Assembly: GCA_017514975.1 (NCBI GenBank)
Contig: JAFWIF010000030.1
Location: 62,001 to 126,000, forward strand
Origin: Candidatus Saccharimonadota bacterium
GTDB taxonomy: Bacteria > Patescibacteriota > Saccharimonadia > Saccharimonadales > Saccharimonadaceae
DNA length: 64,000 bases
Direction of reading: 5' to 3'
Under the pieces are notes generated by a model, which searched no databases, was not told the origin of the DNA, and saw nothing but the letters and a program-made list of their open reading frames with translations. The position numbers and the translations under genes are program-made. Shown in pieces: positions 1,324-60,309 of the stretch; positions within the stretch are counted from its first letter, which is position 1, and the number at the start of each line of letters is the position of its first letter.

Positions 1324-4300
1324 TTATTCCTGTCTCTTTGATGGGCGATAATTATCGCCTAGGACGGAAATATCTAACTTTTCGATACTGATCGCTGGTC
1401 CAACTGAACAATGTATCATATCCGAATCGTTTTTAGAGGTGCTATTATGACCAATCAAGCTGAGTGCGCCACTAGATATTGCATACTTTACATAATACCC
1501 TTCTGCAATATGATCTGAATAGGTTAATCTAATGTAATCATTCGGATACACTGAAAATACCTTCTCAAAGCCGCTTTCTTCTGTAGCAAAGATCTTTCTT
1601 TCTTCATTGCGTAACTTATCATACTCTGCTTTTTCTTCAGCGGAGCGGCCTTTTGGAGTGGGTAAAATTTCATAAGCCTTAGCGTGAAGCGAATGTGCAT
1701 AAACTGGCGCACAGAATAATTTGTATTTTCCAGACTGGTCTTTACGACGATAAATATTAAGACAAACTGTATACCCATTGTTTACAAACTGTGTCCCGTG
1801 ATTAATTAAAATACCAGATGGTTCAGTAGAATAAACCTTAATAGTAGAGATTGGTGAGAGTTGGCAACCGTTTTTGTCTACTTTTTTATTATTTTTATAA
1901 ATGGGCTCCTTAAAGGCATTCTTCCCCTTTTCCTTCCAGAGTCCCTTGAGTTGTTCATAGAGCACCTTATCGCTAACTGGCAGAACCGAATTTTCTATAT
2001 CTTTAATATCACAATCTGTTAATCGTTTGCGCGTGAGTCGACGAGCATCAGCAGTCTTCTTTGGGCTACGAATAGTTTCTTTATGAGCCTGCCCTTTAGC
2101 AGTACGTTTGGGCATGCGTGATATGAACATGGGGTGGATGTGTCGCAAGAATTGCTCATCATAAGATGAAAAATCGCGAAATTTATCTCTAAAATCTTTC
2201 TCGTTTTCAATTTCCGATGAATCATGGCTAAGACCACTACGCAAAATAACTTCTTTCGCAAAATTATCCCACGGCGGAAGCTGTTCGCGTATTTCTTCAT
2301 ATTCTCTGGTAGTCACTTGAGAAGTAGTACCGTCGTCGTTAACATTTATTACCGTTTTATACCTAGCGCCTAACTCACGATATTTGTGCCAAAGTGCGAA
2401 TTTTTTAATTTGTTCCTGAGAGACGGTAGCGATAATACAGGCATCGGCTGCATGATGACAATTATTTATGTCACGGTCTTTAGCGCCGAGGCCATACATC
2501 TTGCGAAGAGACGCCGTGATAAAACCAGTCGGCATCAGAACTTTTTGCTTACCTTTAGTTCCATCAGCGAACTGCAGATTCTTTTTAAAATACTGGCTCA
2601 TGAATTTCATGATGTAACGCGTGTCGTTAAGTGCACGCGTACTCCACTCTTCTTTGGGCAACTTTTCGGACAAGATCCGGTCGCGTTTGGCGAATTTTAT
2701 ATTGGGATTTTGCGCTAGTTCTTTAATGGTCTGCCAACGCTTTTCATCTTGCCCCCATTTTTCAAACGGCGTCTGGCTGGTTGCAGCTGCTACAAACAAG
2801 CGCTTTGTTGGCGTTGCTGTCGTTGCCGCAACGACTAAACGGTATGATGTGGTCAATCTCTGCTAGCTTATCGTCTATAAAAATATCTAAACTAAGTGGC
2901 TTACCGCAATATTGACATTTATTAAGCTGCTCTTCCCAGAGTTTATATTTGGTAATTTGCTTACCTGACGGATTAGTGATATTAAAATTCTCTTGCAAGA
3001 GACTTATGATGCGCTTATTGTTGGCTGCGTTTTCGTCTTGTCGATCCTTAATCTTCTTTCGCTCGTTATAATTTTTGGACAATTCATTAGCGCATTCAAT
3101 TTTAATTTGAGTGGGTGCTCCGTATTTTTTAATAATAGCATTAACTACCTTGCGTGTTTGATTGATGGCTCGTTTAACTACTGGATTAGTAATTTGGCTT
3201 TGTTCTTCTTCGCTTAGAACTGGAAGTTCGTTTTTGTCACCAGAAAGTTTTTCTGAGAATTCTCCTGGATACTCAGCCTCTACAGCCTGATCGTAGGTCA
3301 TACCTATAAGTAAGTGTGGAGTAAGTTTGCGCAGGGCCTTAATTGATAGGTGTGCGAATTTTGAATATGATAAGCCCATCAAATAATCGGTTGTAGTTGG
3401 TGATAACTCTAGCTCTGATAAGGCACCCTTTACTTTCTCGTCATCCTTATTGGCGGTCAGGATGTAGCCAATTTTATCAAAAAGATCTTGGTTAGCAGTA
3501 ATTCTTTGCAAATCTTCTGAGGAGTCCTTGGTGGCCTTCCTGATATCATGATAAAACTTAAGATTGCAAAACTCGTGTTTTTCCTCATCTTCATAGGAAG
3601 CCTCTTTTTTGCCCCGAATATAATCGAACCTAAAATCCGAACTATTTTTGTGGCCGATAGTTTCTCTAATTGCCTTATAGGTAACTTTTTGGGTATTTTG
3701 CGCCTTTTCTATGCATAGCCTAATTTGCTCTGGCGTGAGCCTTTGCCCGTCATTATAAGTAAGATTAGCTAAATCTTGTGCGAGACGAAAAATTTCAAAA
3801 GTATAGCTAGCCTTCCAGGCACGCTGCTCGCCTTTTTCATATGGACATTTGCCGCGCATTTTATTGATTAACTCTTCGGTCATAAAAGGACGCTGGTAAA
3901 ATAAACCGTGAGGCTTTTTATCTAATAGTTCAAAAATATCATCATCCGACCAACCTTGAGTTTTTAAAATAAGGATAATTTCCTTCTGAAAATCTTCTCG
4001 TATGAAAGAGTTGGTATAATCGTCTAGCCTGTTGCGCTTGTGGCTCTTGAATTTATCGTCTTCCAGCAATGCCTGAGCGACAGATTTGTATTGTTCTAGG
4101 AGCTTCTGATTTTCTTTAATTGCACCCAGAACTTTACGGCTATCAGTAGATGCTTCCTCCACCTTTCTGCGATTGCTTTTATAGCCGCGTCGTTTGGCAA
4201 TATGATAAAGCGCGACGAATAACTGGTTATTTGGAAGCTTTTTAGAGATTGCTTGTTCTCGTAATTGATATGGGTCATATCTATGAAAAAGTTCGTCATT

Positions 4301-4555
4301 GATTTCTTCAAGTTTTAATAGTTTATGTTCGATAAAGAAACTCTTTAGATAGTTAAGCCTCTGGCGACGGCGTTTTAAACGACGACGCGTAGACCGGGCA
4401 TCGCGGCGAGGCTTGGCGAGCGACTCGCCATTTTTAGGATTTTCTGGACGTTCAAAAATACGCACCCCTAAATCTTCGATGCGTTTTTTATCTTCATTAA
4501 TTATTGCCCAACCTACACTGGTAGTGCCGAGATCAAGGCCTAATGAATATTTCAT
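1324..4555 (-). pseudogene. cas9: Type II-C Cas9, frameshifted in the HNH domain
   Basis: Two reading frames together give about 1075 aa, right for II-C Cas9. Frame 1 (4555 down to 2762) carries RuvC-I (GLDLGTTSVGWAI, Asp8), the Arg-rich bridge helix, the helical lobe, RuvC-II (IKIECANE) and most of HNH with two CxxC pairs (CQYC, CSSC) and the DHIIPFSR catalytic His. It then runs to TGA after CNQPDAV. Frame 2 resumes at TPFEKWG near 2775 and holds the linker, RuvC-III (HHAADA) and the C-terminal PAM-interacting part to 1324. Other Cas9 proteins have about five residues between NQ and TPFE, so a net deletion of about 11 nt between two AACCAG/CCAG words explains the break better than a single extra base. 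The start is the Met at 4555: it has GGGAG six bases upstream and an extended -10 (TGG-TATAAT, 4578-4583); the Met four codons earlier lacks this spacing. Confidence 0.9.
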
Positions 4556-4577
4556 AAATACTCCCAATTACCGCTTC

Positions 4578-7534: not shown

Positions 7535-7563
7535 ATTATATCACACTTAGCTTAAAAAGTCAA
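7535..7563 (-). promoter_or_regulatory. Consensus promoter with ~125-nt leader
   Basis: TTGACT and TATAAT separated by exactly 17 bp, the spacer ending TGTGA. The same arrangement recurs at 30762-30790, 44875-44903 and elsewhere in the window. Confidence 0.75.
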
Positions 7564-7630
7564 GCGTTGACGGAATAAGTCTTGTCTTGAGCGTGCTCGC
7601 TAATGATGAGACGGATACGAGAGCGAGGCG

Positions 7631-19592: not shown

Positions 19593-19955
19593 CATAAAGA
19601 GAACAACGGACTGCAGAGCTGCTTTTAGCTAGCGTCGAAGACTGTTTGTCATGAATTTGGTTGGTTGTTTTGTGGACGATCTGGAGTTGCTATACTAGAA
19701 GAAAGTGGAGCTTGGTGGGCGAGAGCGAAAAGAGGAGATTGCTGAGGGTTTGGATAGATGATAGAGTAAACAAATTAGTGTAACTTGATTAGAGGGGGCA
19801 TGCGGGTGTTTTGAGGTTTTAGTGGTTTTTAGCTATTTTGAAATGATACATATTTTTATTATATCATACTTTTATTTAAAAGTCAAGCATTGACGGAATA
19901 ATATTGGTGTGGTAGAGTTTGGGTATAATTTCTGGTCAAAAATAAAAAGGAGAAA
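19593..19955. other. Intergenic region with LCP relic, orphan minus-strand promoter and surface-protein promoter
   Basis: No intact gene is seen. Bases 19700-19790 (minus) are a decayed copy of the LCP gene start. TTGACT (19881-19886), 17 bp, TATAAT (19858-19863) is a strong minus-strand promoter aimed at that relic. On the plus strand TATAAT at 19924-19929 is the likely -10 of the surface-protein gene that follows. Confidence 0.6.
19700..19790 (-). pseudogene. Degenerate fragment of an LCP-family gene
   Basis: Read on the minus strand this gives IQTLSNLLFSLSPTKLHFLLV then a stop. The intact LCP gene at 17409-18884 has IQALTSLLFLFSLAKLNLLQ at residues 9-28. DNA words are also shared (AGGAGATTGCTGAGGGTTTGG against AGGAGACTGGTGAGGGCTTGG on the plus strand). 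The rest of the gene is missing. It looks like the remains of a tandem duplicate. Confidence 0.5.
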
Positions 19956-21573
19956 ATGAGTATGACTTCTAAGAGGATTATGTCTCGGATTTTGGGGAGA
20001 TTCGGGAACTTGAAAAGGAGTATTGGGGGGGGGTAAAAGAAAATTTCTAGCATTCGCGTTGTTGTTAGGGTTAGTTTTGTCTGCAGCCGGTAGTGCTGTG
20101 GAGTCAGTGCAGGCAGCGACAGATAGTGAGGCAACGGGTGGTGCCGAGGGTTCAGTGGCGGCTACGCGGAGAATTACAGTGACGAAAAAGTGGGTGGGCG
20201 ACAACGAATCTGTACGACCAGAAGATATTAAGATTCATTTGAAGAAGAGCGAGGCAGTATTGAAAAAAGGACAAGAATTGTCGGTAATAATGAAGGTTTT
20301 GTCTGGAGATGAACAAGTTACTGGCCCGAGCCATAATGGCCCGAATGATAATCCCCCGAGTGATAATATGACAATTGCTGCATTTAGGCGCGCAACCGAG
20401 GCGCAGTACAGCCAAGCTTTGGCCGCTGGTGCGACGATTGAGAACGTTTCGGAGAGCGGTGAGGCGGTATATTTTTGGTTTGATAACGGCGTGATTTTCT
20501 ACTATAGTAAGTCGGATAATATCTACATGAACAGTGATTCTGCGTGGTTCTTTGCTAGTATGCGCAATCTTACCGATATAAGTGGTGTTAGTACGTTGAA
20601 TACGGCTTATGTAACGAGTATGCGTCATATGTTTGTGAATTGCACGAGTCTTGTTGATTTGTCTCCCTTGGCAGCATGGGATACGGGCAATGTAACAACG
20701 ATGCGTTTTATGTTTGGATTTTCGGAGTTTAATACCTATGACACAGATAGCGAGGAGAGTTTTATGAGCTACAATGATCTTGCGCCGCTAGCGAATTGGA
20801 ACACGCAAGGCGTAATTGATATGAATTGTATGTTTAGAAATGCTCGTAGCATTAAGACCTTGGAGCCGATTGGTAGTTGGAATGTTGCTAACCTAATCAG
20901 TGCCGCATCAATGTTTAACAGAACAGAGGCTTTAGAAGACGCGTCCGCGATTCGCGGCTGGGATGTGAGGAGGGTTGGCGGCGAATACGCCCCTGGAGAC
21001 GGTACGGTGCAAAAAGGGAGCTTCATGACGATGTTTCAGAAGTCGGGGGTATTAGCGAGCGATAGTTTGCCAAACTTCGCACTTAGAGCTGGGTCTTGGA
21101 ATAATGGGACTTTTGTGCCAGACAATGAGCCTTTGATGGATAGTGTGCCGGTCGTAACGAAAATTAAAGACATAACGAATGAGCGTGTGATTGGCGGAGA
21201 CGGAGTAAGGTGGGCTAAGGACGGAAATATATGGGTAGCAAGCGTAGATGTGTCAAATGACGGAAGCGTATGGAAAGCTTGGGAAGAGACGGAAAATGGC
21301 TCGGTAAAAGCAAAGGGAGCTGGGGCTTATGTTGAGAGTAGTGAGGGGCGTGAGGGCTACGGTAAAGATGAGGCGAATGCGGTGAGAGGGATTACAAAGG
21401 CGGTTGAGTTTACGAATGTTTATAACGCAAAGGCGACGAATGTCGTGAAGAATCCGAAGACGGCAGGCGAAAGTTATGCGGTCGCCTTTGTGGCGCTGGG
21501 TGGGGCGATTGCGGGAATGTTTGCGCTTGTGGGGGGATTGACTGCGAGAAGAATAGTGCGGGATAGGAAATAA
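19956..21573 (+). CDS. Phase-variable secreted BspA-like (DUF285) surface protein, out of frame as read
   Basis: The mature part (open from 20023 to 21573) has a hydrophobic signal core (FLAFALLLGLVLSAAG), a Cna-B-like opening strand (RITVTKKWVGDN), several BspA/DUF285 repeats (residues ~125-310: MRHMFVNCTSLVDLSPLAAWDTG and similar), the Cna-B-like ending (AVEFTNVYN), and a C-terminal NPKTAG + hydrophobic segment + Arg-rich tail. That C-terminus looks like a sortase or membrane-anchoring signal. The best start is ATG 19956 or 19962 after AAGGAG. From it, nine G bases at 20025-20033 bring a TAA at once; eight or eleven would join the signal peptide in frame. A TTG inside the tract (20023) could give weak expression, but its ribosome site is only two bases away. 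Confidence 0.82.
20025..20033 (+). repeat. Poly-G tract (G9) inside the signal-peptide coding region
   Basis: Nine consecutive G bases encode part of the n-region of the surface protein and set the frame between the upstream ATG and the secretion signal. Such tracts change length by slipped-strand mispairing. Confidence 0.85.
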
Positions 21574-27370: not shown

Positions 27371-28866
27371 ATGAAAGAGAGAGTTCTGGGGGGGGGTATT
27401 TTAGAAGTAAATTGGTGATTTTCGGGGCGATTGTCGTAGCGCTGTTGTTTAGCGTGATGTTTAGTAATGGAGGGGGAGTTTATGCGGTCGCGAAAATGAC
27501 AATTAGCGATGTGAGGTTGTTTTCTGACTACGAGGGGACGCAGGAGATTGATTTGAGTAGTCCGATGGCGGCAGATCAGTCTTTTTTGACAAAGATTACA
27601 TATAAATATGAGGCGGATAGGGCGATTCGGGCTGGAGATACGGTGAGTGTGGATTTTTTGGATGATAGGTTAGATAATGGGACACATATTTGGACAGTGA
27701 AAGACATGGCAGCGACGGATGTGGTGGGCGAAGATGGGAAGAAGGTATTTGATTGGAAGATTGAAGATTATAAGATTGTGATTACTTTTGGGGAGGGGGC
27801 GGCTGGAAAGGGAGTAGTTGAGGGCGAGCTAATTACGGGTAGAAGGCTGAATGTGCAAACGAGGATAGTGGTCTTGGGCGAGCAGAATTTTAAGATGACA
27901 GTCGGCGACTACGAGAAAAAAATTGGGGTTATCTCGGCAAAGAGGACTACGACCGAGACAAAGAATGATTTTCTTGTTACAGATGCTGATAGGACAAACG
28001 ACATGGTTAGTTGGGCCTTTATGACATCTAGTAAGCCGATAAAAGAGTTATATGCAAGTGGCGGCGAAGAGGCGCTGAGTGATGGGGTGCAGTATAAAAA
28101 TCTCATAGCCGAGAGTCAACTAAACGAGGACATTATCGGTGCGGAAGTTACCAATATATCTGCGTATTGTTATGTGCCGTTTAGGGACAATGATGGCGTT
28201 ATGAAAGCGAGTAGCAATAAGCTTACATTATCGATTATGTCGTTGGCGCGGGAAGTAAAGCAGACGGACGATCAAAGCTACGAAGAATTTAAGTCGTCAT
28301 TAGGCGAACTTGAGTATGGATTTTATAGAGATGTTGAGACAGGGAGGACGACGTTTGTGATAAATTATGGGGATATCCCAAATCAGATAACTTATCAGCA
28401 GGCCTTAAATTTGAATGGGATTACGACGAGTCTTGGCGAACACATGAGGAGTAATTCAGAGTTTTTGTCGCAGGAGACGGCGAATTACGTCGATAGAGCG
28501 CTCGGCAGAGGAAATGCCGTGCAGGGGCGAGTAGTTGGAATACAAGTAACTGTGGAGGAGAAATATGACGTAGTGCATGAAATAGTGGGTCGCCCTAGTA
28601 CTGTAAAATTTTCATATCAGGATAATTCCGGGAAGGCACATAGTGTGACGAGGGCGAGTAAGTCTAATCGGTTGATTCCGCTTAAAGCTGGCTGGGTAAG
28701 AGTGGCTGATTTTGTAGATAAGGGAGATATCAGTAGTAGGACGAATAATGCTGGCAAGGTCGTTAATCCAAAGACTAGCGACGAGAATTTGGCGGTAGCA
28801 TTTGTTCTGTTCGGTGGGGCTGTAGCGGGGTTGGGGGCGATTGTGGCGACGAGAAGGAAGTTCTAG
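27371..28866 (+). CDS. Phase-variable secreted adhesin-like surface protein, out of frame as read
   Basis: The open part (27412-28866) encodes a signal core (LVIFGAIVVALLFSVMFS), an adhesin-like region starting near residue 25 (MTISDVRLFSDYEGTQEI, then AIRAGDTVSVDFLDD, typical of Ig-like N-domains of Gram-positive adhesins), a long middle without recognised family, and the C-terminus NPKTSDENLAVAFVLFGG + helix + TRRKF, clearly related to that of the gene at 19956-21573. The likely start is ATG 27371 after AAGGA. G9 at 27388-27396 leads from it to a TGA at 27416, whereas ten (or seven) G would run on in frame through the signal peptide. A TTG at 27412 is open but has no ribosome site. Confidence 0.8.
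27388..27396 (+). repeat. Poly-G tract (G9) inside the signal-peptide coding region
   Basis: Nine consecutive G bases six codons after the ATG. One base more would put the ATG in frame with the secretion signal. Confidence 0.85.
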
Positions 28867-29049
28867 AGCGGTGTTTAGTGGGGTAAAATTGTTTATGTTT
28901 TGAGCTTGAGTGAGCTTGCGATAGAATAAAAAAGAACAATAGGATTATTGTTGGTAACTTAGAGTTTAGCGAAATTTACTGAGAAATATCGCGTCGGTTG
29001 GATTTTAAAATATTGCGTTGGTTGGGTTTTGCGACAAGGAGGTAGAGAG

Positions 29050-59289: not shown

Positions 59290-59320
59290 TTGACTTTTTG
59301 TCATGGGGGGGGGGTATCTT
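59290..59320 (+). promoter_or_regulatory. Promoter with poly-G (G10) in the -35/-10 spacer
   Basis: TTGACT (59290-59295) and TATCTT (59315-59320) are 19 bp apart; ten of the spacer bases are G (59305-59314). Loss of two G would give the optimal 17 bp. The next ATG (59353) has GAGG upstream. An ATG inside the tract leads only to a stop that overlaps this start. Confidence 0.7.
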
Positions 59321-59352
59321 AAAAGTATCAATAAGATAAGCGAGGTAGATAA

Positions 59353-60309
59353 ATGATAAATCACGAGATTGGACATCATGAGGATGGTGGCAACGAATCA
59401 AAAGATCGGGAAGAAGATGCGAAGATTAATGCGCTTGAAGCGATGCAGGGGAAGATGGGAGAGAGCGCGGAGAGTGATGCCCCGAAGTTTGAAAAAGAAG
59501 ATATTGCATCGTTGGAGAAAATTAAAGAGCAGCTGGAAGCGATCGGCGTGCGAAGGGATGTGCTTGAAAGCAAAGCGTTTAAGCAATACATATTGCCGAG
59601 CCTTCCGAAGTATGACGACATGGATGACGATGCGTGGAAAGAGGGGGAAAAGATAAAAGTCGATAAGGTAGTACAAGAACAGGATGAGTTTGGTTTTGAT
59701 CTCAGGGATTTAACGGGGGTGTCCAAAGGCAAAGATCTCGATGTTGTGCGGTTTCACGCTACTAAGGATGGCGGGATTGCACAGACGCGGCGATATGTAT
59801 CTGGGTATCATGTAGGAGAAGAGATGGCTGGGCGTCGAGACGAAGGTTGTTTCTTTTCGTACGATAGCGTAACGGTAAACCCTGATGCCGAGGGTGGAAT
59901 GTCGGTAGAGTGCGAGAGGATGATGGAGCGGATCAATATTACAAGCGACAATGGCGAAGAGACTGGTACGAGTAGTTTTTCGGGAGGTGTCGAGGAGGCC
60001 AAATTTGATGCGGAGGGGAGCAAAACGTCGCGACTGGTTAGACACTATAAGCACAAGGTAGGTGAATACAATAATAACAATATTAGTTATTTGAAGAGTA
60101 AAATAAAGCTTGGTGGAGGATATAGTGATGGAAGGGCGACCCGGATAGTGTCTAGGAAGACAATGGCTGACTTGCAAGAAATGAGCGGAGAGTGGGAGCG
60201 GTATACGTTGGGAGAATTTGGCGTTAATACTGAGACTTCCAGCGGAGATGTTTCTCTTAAGCGTCATGTGTCTGGAGACGGGCTAGATCAAGCATATTTT
60301 GATTATTAG
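59353..60309 (+). CDS. Unknown hydrophilic protein behind a poly-G promoter
   Basis: A 318-aa protein without signal peptide, membrane helix or known domain. The first 80 residues are highly charged and helical (NESKDREEDAKINALEAMQG), followed by a mixed region rich in Gly, Asp and Ser (DLRDLTGVSKGKDLDVVRF; TSSFSGGVEEAKFDAEGSK), with a tail ending DQAYFDY. The upstream frame closes with TAA right before the ATG, so the start is fixed. Its expression should vary with the length of the G tract in its promoter spacer. A role at the surface is not evident from sequence. Confidence 0.65.
   Translation: MINHEIGHHEDGGNESKDREEDAKINALEAMQGKMGESAESDAPKFEKEDIASLEKIKEQLEAIGVRRDVLESKAFKQYILPSLPKYDDMDDDAWKEGEKIKVDKVVQEQDEFGFDLRDLTGVSKGKDLDVVRFHATKDGGIAQTRRYVSGYHVGEEMAGRRDEGCFFSYDSVTVNPDAEGGMSVECERMMERINITSDNGEETGTSSFSGGVEEAKFDAEGSKTSRLVRHYKHKVGEYNNNNISYLKSKIKLGGGYSDGRATRIVSRKTMADLQEMSGEWERYTLGEFGVNTETSSGDVSLKRHVSGDGLDQAYFDY

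Follow-up and report, generated by a model that had tools for sequence, protein, structure and literature searches.

At one locus in the window (the whole stretch of DNA analyzed, 64,000 nucleotides), a start codon linked to a ribosome-binding site leads through a run of nine G into a stop codon, and directly behind it, in another frame, lies an open reading frame for a 512-aa surface protein. The arrangement raises the question of whether the G9 tract turns this gene on and off, whether the gene is broken or its sequence miscounted, or whether the protein is made by some other route. The sequence points to the first of these, with the tract serving as a phase-variation switch at the start of a gene for a DUF285/PARCEL surface protein of predicted sortase anchoring, and we give this reading a probability of roughly 0.86.

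The G9 locus and the protein it encodes

Features of the locus, and of related loci, are collected in Table 1. The two ATG codons behind the Shine-Dalgarno (SD) sequence are in frame with each other, with the better SD spacing at ATG 19962 (9 nt, against 3 nt at ATG 19956), and their frame reads 23 codons before G9 and then meets TAA at 20034-20036, as the first-pass annotation had described. Its arithmetic for the ON state is also correct: 69 nt separate ATG 19956 from the onset of the tract, and the start and body frames therefore join at 8 or 11 G and are unjoined at 9 or 10 G. The body frame is open from 20035 to 21570 (stop at 21571), and the ON frame reads on as KRKFLAFALLLGLVLSAAG.

Table 1. 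Coordinates of the poly-G loci and their features (window positions, or contig:position for tracts across the genome)
Feature	Position	Strand	Remarks
Promoter-like site TTGACG, 17 nt, TAGAGT	19890..19918	+	Within motif GTCAAGCATTGACGGAAT (19882-19899)
Shared 5' leader motif GGTCAAAAATAAA	19934..19946	+	Precedes most coding-class tract genes
Shine-Dalgarno AAGGAG	19947..19952	+	Sequence
Short frame, OFF product: ATG 19956 (or 19962), 26 codons and TAA, basic n-region	19956..20036	+	Sequence and translation
G9 tract, proposed slip site	20025..20033	+	Sequence, run-length statistics
Body ORF, DUF285/PARCEL-repeat surface protein, 512 aa and stop	20035..21573	+	Out of frame with SD-linked ATG at G9
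Signal peptide in body (ON) frame, KRK and hydrophobic core FLAFALLLGLVLSAAG	20035..20091	+	Sequence
PARCEL/DUF285 repeat region	20629..20976	+	PF03382 E=3.1e-20; TIGR02167 E=7.9e-12
Sortase-type sorting signal: NPKTA, hydrophobic segment, basic tail RRIVRDRK	21451..21570	+	Sequence
Terminator-like stem-loop	21617..21633	+	Sequence
Companion frame-type switch: ATG 27371, G9 27388-27396, TGA 27416	27371..28869	+	OFF as read; same leader as main locus
Companion promoter-type tract: TTGACT 59290-59295, G10 59305-59314, TATCTT 59315-59320	59290..60309	+	19-nt spacer; sequence
Frame-type tracts in the genome	C2:2179, 67814, 74264, 76966, 159065; C18:82025, 89388; C20:13559; C23:18782, 35076; C24:4991		C18:82025 is the main locus
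Promoter-spacer tracts (between -35 and -10), n=5	C2:9164, C2:3096, C18:121305, C21:3372, C31:8312		

The region of promoter and leader is common to other tract genes of the genome (75–80% identity over ~80–145 nt), and within the window the leader motif has exact copies at just two places, 19934 and 27345, each ahead of a tract gene. The leader motif GGTCAAAATAAAC is found ahead of tract-free surface genes in relatives as well, and so does not belong to the switch itself. The motif that contains the -35 hexamer has a second copy with one mismatch at 7559-7576 of the window (+ strand), with no obvious plus-strand gene behind it.

The G9 tract is an uninterrupted homopolymer inside coding sequence, well above the length expected by chance. 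G runs in the window number 42 of length 5, three of length 6, none of length 7 or 8, two of length 9 and one of length 10; the three G/C runs of at least 9 compare with 0.08–0.35 expected under Markov models of order 1–4 with long runs masked, and all three lie at gene 5' ends. The second G9 tract precedes a 489-aa surface protein that would be opened by 10 or 7 G; its C-terminus has the form NPKTS-hydrophobic-RRKF, and a family search of the protein gave no match. The G10 tract is of another kind, lying in a promoter, and the gene behind it encodes a hydrophilic 318-aa protein without a known family. Throughout the phylum, promoters of this kind are followed by small hydrophilic proteins resembling this one (L208, L212, L213, L215 and L217).

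The main protein had been labeled BspA-like, a name for which DUF285/PARCEL is the better replacement: it scores 72.5 bits against PF03382 (DUF285; cut-off 25) and 44.7 bits against TIGR02167 (PARCEL repeat; cut-off 30), while the BspA-type LRR family (LRR_5) gave no match and a Pfam search at E≤1 returned only DUF285 and a sub-threshold Cna_B. The C-terminal [LN]PxT-type motif, hydrophobic segment and basic tail, together with a sortase in the genome (four sortase-family matches, three above cut-off and one weak), mark it as a predicted sortase substrate. A PDB relative was not found by sequence, and an AlphaFold model from a two-row alignment reached a pLDDT of 36. Orthologs were absent from 44 genus mates and from the wider set of genome contigs, apart from a 24%-identical DUF285 protein of a Lachnospiraceae member.

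Under the switch reading, transcription and translation would start normally from the promoter, leader and SD-linked ATG, and replication slippage would alter the tract by at least one base. With 8 or 11 G the ribosome would read across the signal peptide and on into the body (ON), and with 9 or 10 G it would halt within about 25 codons (OFF). The first-pass annotation had placed the tract within the secretion signal, which holds, but had it decide only whether the protein is exported; because the OFF lengths end translation after about 25 codons, the tract would control the synthesis of the protein itself. We infer slippage at the DUF285 locus, expression and surface display of its product, and some part for it in binding or evading a host.

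The protein might instead be made constitutively from TTG 20023, with G9 merely encoding Gly-Gly-Gly and the frame of the upstream ATG irrelevant. At G9 this codon shares the frame of the body; AGGAG stands just upstream of it, and it would supply MGGGKRKFLAFALLLGLVLSAAG, a good candidate signal peptide. However, the AGGAG lies only 2 nt before the TTG, and the promoter, leader and SD suit ATG 19956/19962 instead; other OFF loci of the genome are without a comparable SD-supported start, and a paralog whose body begins in the same way has G10 after its ATG and lacks a TTG of this kind. We regard constitutive synthesis from the TTG as very unlikely, and some leaky expression at G9 from this poorly placed codon could occur.

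Poly-G loci across the genome

The genome is a 0.89-Mb draft in 39 contigs, in which homopolymer lengths are open to miscalling. It holds 20 tracts of at least eight G, each of which was inspected, and 11 of these lie no more than 110 nt downstream of the ATG of a surface-type ORF, within the first ~36 codons. On the rough assumption of ~80 secreted-protein starts of 110 nt each, or 0.5% of strand-specific sequence, chance placement of 11 of 20 tracts at such starts would be vanishingly unlikely. The proteins carry InlB-type repeats, SpaA, VWA, DUF285, DUF7601 and other surface domains, and most have NPxT sorting signals. At their assembled lengths four of the 11 loci read ON and seven OFF, the mix that random switching would leave (random frames would put ~3.7 in frame). 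Five further tracts sit in promoter spacers, so that the locus described above, first taken for a single switch, belongs to a set spread over the genome, with tracts of the promoter type as a sister class. This set most likely comprises about 16 loci, judged from their layout, with 11 frame switches in surface-protein genes and five promoter-spacer switches. The remaining tracts, on C32, C34 and C36 and at C24:29925, were set aside, having a different layout and being perhaps foreign to the bin. The idea that coding-class tracts act as promoters of downstream starts was rejected, as there is no SD-linked start behind them and no -35 in register.

The intactness of the genes bears on whether the main locus is dead, through a permanent frameshift of decay, or only appears frameshifted through a homopolymer miscounted in assembly. 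The assembly is a draft, and homopolymers are the commonest site of indel errors, yet errors would not cluster just past the starts of surface-protein genes, and only a tract that was already long, the very feature that stands out, could be miscounted in this way. Bodies of the 11 frame-type loci are intact at 352–1555 aa, including the OFF ones (449–1555 aa). The closest relative of the DUF285 gene is a 62%-identical paralog on C20, which likewise reads OFF, with G10 after its own ATG. Comparison of the pair gave a pS of 0.68, a pN of 0.25 and a dN/dS of about 0.16, dS being near saturation; differences are most frequent at the third codon position (0.50, against 0.29 and 0.23 at the other two). 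By this comparison the paralogs are under purifying selection and are not dead genes, because the proteins are selected as proteins even though both copies read OFF. Selection on two OFF copies is predicted by a reversible switch and not by decay, and gene death or consensus error is highly improbable as an account of the G9 locus.

Sequence immediately around the tracts shows some further regularities. In eight of the 11 frame-type tracts, TAT follows directly 3' of the G run, in ON frame 0 in five and ON frame 2 in three; since genes vary in which frame is ON, the TAT is not maintained for a coding role, and its conservation is at the DNA level. In the promoter-type tracts, TAT forms the start of the -10. 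The two tract types may share an origin, or the flank may play a role in slippage; recurrence of one TAT flank in the two layouts would suggest a common seeding route for new switches.

Two of the frame-type genes (C2:2179 and C2:159065) have 5' ends that are near-identical up to the tract and quite different bodies (437 and 886 aa), a pattern suggestive of modular shuffling of a switch cassette. Two others (C2:67814, 979 aa; C24:4991, 1555 aa) encode surface proteins with a C-terminal Fib_succ_major domain that resembles the variable domains targeted by diversity-generating retroelements. An apparent retroelement of this type, consisting of target, Avd-like gene, template region and reverse transcriptase, is present on C32, a 3 kb contig perhaps of phage origin or from outside the bin, and there a G10 lies immediately upstream of the Avd-like gene.

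Relatives, promoter tracts and mismatch repair

The pattern GGGGGGGGTAT occurs 11 times in this genome (reversed control, 0) and gives only four single matches in 44 genus mates. Across 295 genomes of the family its matches are scattered but concentrated: they occur in 59 genomes, with 6–13 in a few, and by our own tally of the table there are 174 forward and 28 reversed matches. Frame-type tracts with the shared leader reach their fullest development in the present genome, and most tracts of relatives are of the promoter-spacer type. In these and in the five loci here, a TTGACA-like hexamer, G8–15 and a TATAAT-like hexamer follow one another, with spacers mostly of 17–20 nt. Both hexamers were found within two mismatches of TTGACA and TATAAT at 51 of 103 sampled tract sites, compared with 28 of 1649 control runs of G4–5. 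For exact TTGACA, a feature on which the TAT-based sampling has no bearing, the counts were 22 of 103 and 3 of 1649. Across the phylum (241 genomes), TTGACA-N3-11-G8-TA gave 18 matches and none when reversed.

Type IV pilin genes stand behind seven of the poly-G promoters, spread over three genomes; all seven genes match PF07963, one slightly below cut-off. The pilin genes of relatives at L133, L140, L143, L155, L156 and L157 have their ATG 12–21 nt past the tract (12–16 in most), and because it is so close, the mRNAs are probably leaderless.

Tract length differs among paralogous sites of relatives. One genome (G253) has G15 and G10 tracts with upstream sequences 94% identical over 65 nt, another (G251) has G10 and G9 at paralogous tracts with near-identical flanks, and in a third (G393) copies of the promoter TTGACACGCGCATGA have tracts of 9 and 8 G, and the promoter TTGACATGCGCATGA has one of 10 G. 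As these are paralogous sites and not strains, the comparison shows unstable length in a constant context and not switching itself.

The same differences bear on recoding, in which RNA polymerase or the ribosome would slip on the G run to yield a fixed fraction of full-length protein from unchanged DNA. Transcriptional or ribosomal slippage can occur at long homopolymers, and recoding would explain why the OFF frames are intact. The differing lengths beside near-identical flanks point instead to slippage of the DNA, and five tracts here and most in relatives are in promoter spacers, where recoding would be meaningless. Recoding is scarcely credible as the explanation of the locus, and is possible as a minor contribution.

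A search for MutS_V failed to detect it in this genome and in 18 of 19 other family genomes (the exception being one weak match), and the same test found it in 11 of 14 control genomes. Without MutS-dependent mismatch repair the tracts would be especially unstable, and each cell would display a random subset of its adhesins. The original proposal of slipped-strand phase variation, with the gene OFF as read, is thus supported by the recurrence of the layout at 11 loci, their ON/OFF mix, the intact OFF ORFs, purifying selection and the failure to detect MutS.

Precedents and significance for Saccharibacteria

Phase variation by poly-G slippage is known from Neisseria, Campylobacter and Bifidobacterium. 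The nearest precedent is in the sortase-dependent pilus clusters bbr_0113 and bbr_1889 of Bifidobacterium breve, where, as here, a G tract lies near the 5' coding end of a sortase-dependent surface-protein gene (the first gene of the cluster) and separates the start and body frames, slippage joining them; mixtures of tract lengths were measured by Maximum Depth Sequencing (PMC9187656). That case involves one or two pilus operons of an actinobacterium with measured length mixtures, whereas about 11 surface genes and additional promoter tracts are involved here, in a reduced genome where MutS was undetected. The frame-type contingency loci of Neisseria and Campylobacter (for example lgtG, and the PhasomeIt catalogue) are alike in having G8–12, ON/OFF control by frame, surface-related genes and several loci per genome; the present loci differ in belonging to another phylum, in the consistent position of the tract, past the start codon and ahead of the signal peptide's hydrophobic core, and in the failure to detect MutS. 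For the promoter class the model is porA of Neisseria meningitidis, in which poly-G lies between -35 and -10 and spacer length shifts expression stepwise (PMC3639595), but the main locus differs in being of the reading-frame type. DUF285/PARCEL proteins of Mycoplasma and Listeria have a similar body domain, which is here combined with sortase-type anchoring in place of a lipoprotein anchor and with a poly-G switch. A slippage-prone, hypervariable repeat gene has been described in a candidate-phyla-radiation bacterium, Gracilibacterium, where 9-mer repeats alter protein length in frame (PMC6851277); unlike the present case it has no on/off homopolymer switch. In the incomplete literature searched, no published report of poly-G switches in Saccharibacteria or Patescibacteria was found, and on Saccharibacteria and homopolymers only remarks on sequencing error. 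The mechanism itself is already known.

The organism is probably a member of the Saccharibacteria. 16S is absent from this assembly, and with it any TM7-specific 16S signature; what we take to be the target of the TM7905 probe is present exactly in one genus mate and in four further genera of this family. Those Saccharibacteria that have been cultivated live attached to the outside of other bacteria. Type IV pili matter for their binding to hosts (PMC12206443). A wider reading, which we hold tentatively and at a little short of even odds, is that Saccharibacteria and other Patescibacteria run poly-G phasomes, in which episymbionts without mismatch repair randomize adhesins, type IV pilins and small hydrophilic proteins through signal-peptide-frame and promoter-spacer layouts, leaving each population with mixed host-binding states. 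Random switches on adhesins, and in relatives on pilin promoters, would explain how a varied surface is obtained from a genome of about 0.9 Mb, and a single assembled genome would then give a false picture of which surface genes are active. Automated gene calling will mis-annotate such genes, giving them TTG starts or calling them frameshifted pseudogenes. The cas9 gene of the window (1324-4567, minus strand) is split into two overlapping frames (601 and 510 aa) near 2762-2856, by the HNH region, and this looks like a frameshift that is not at a homopolymer.
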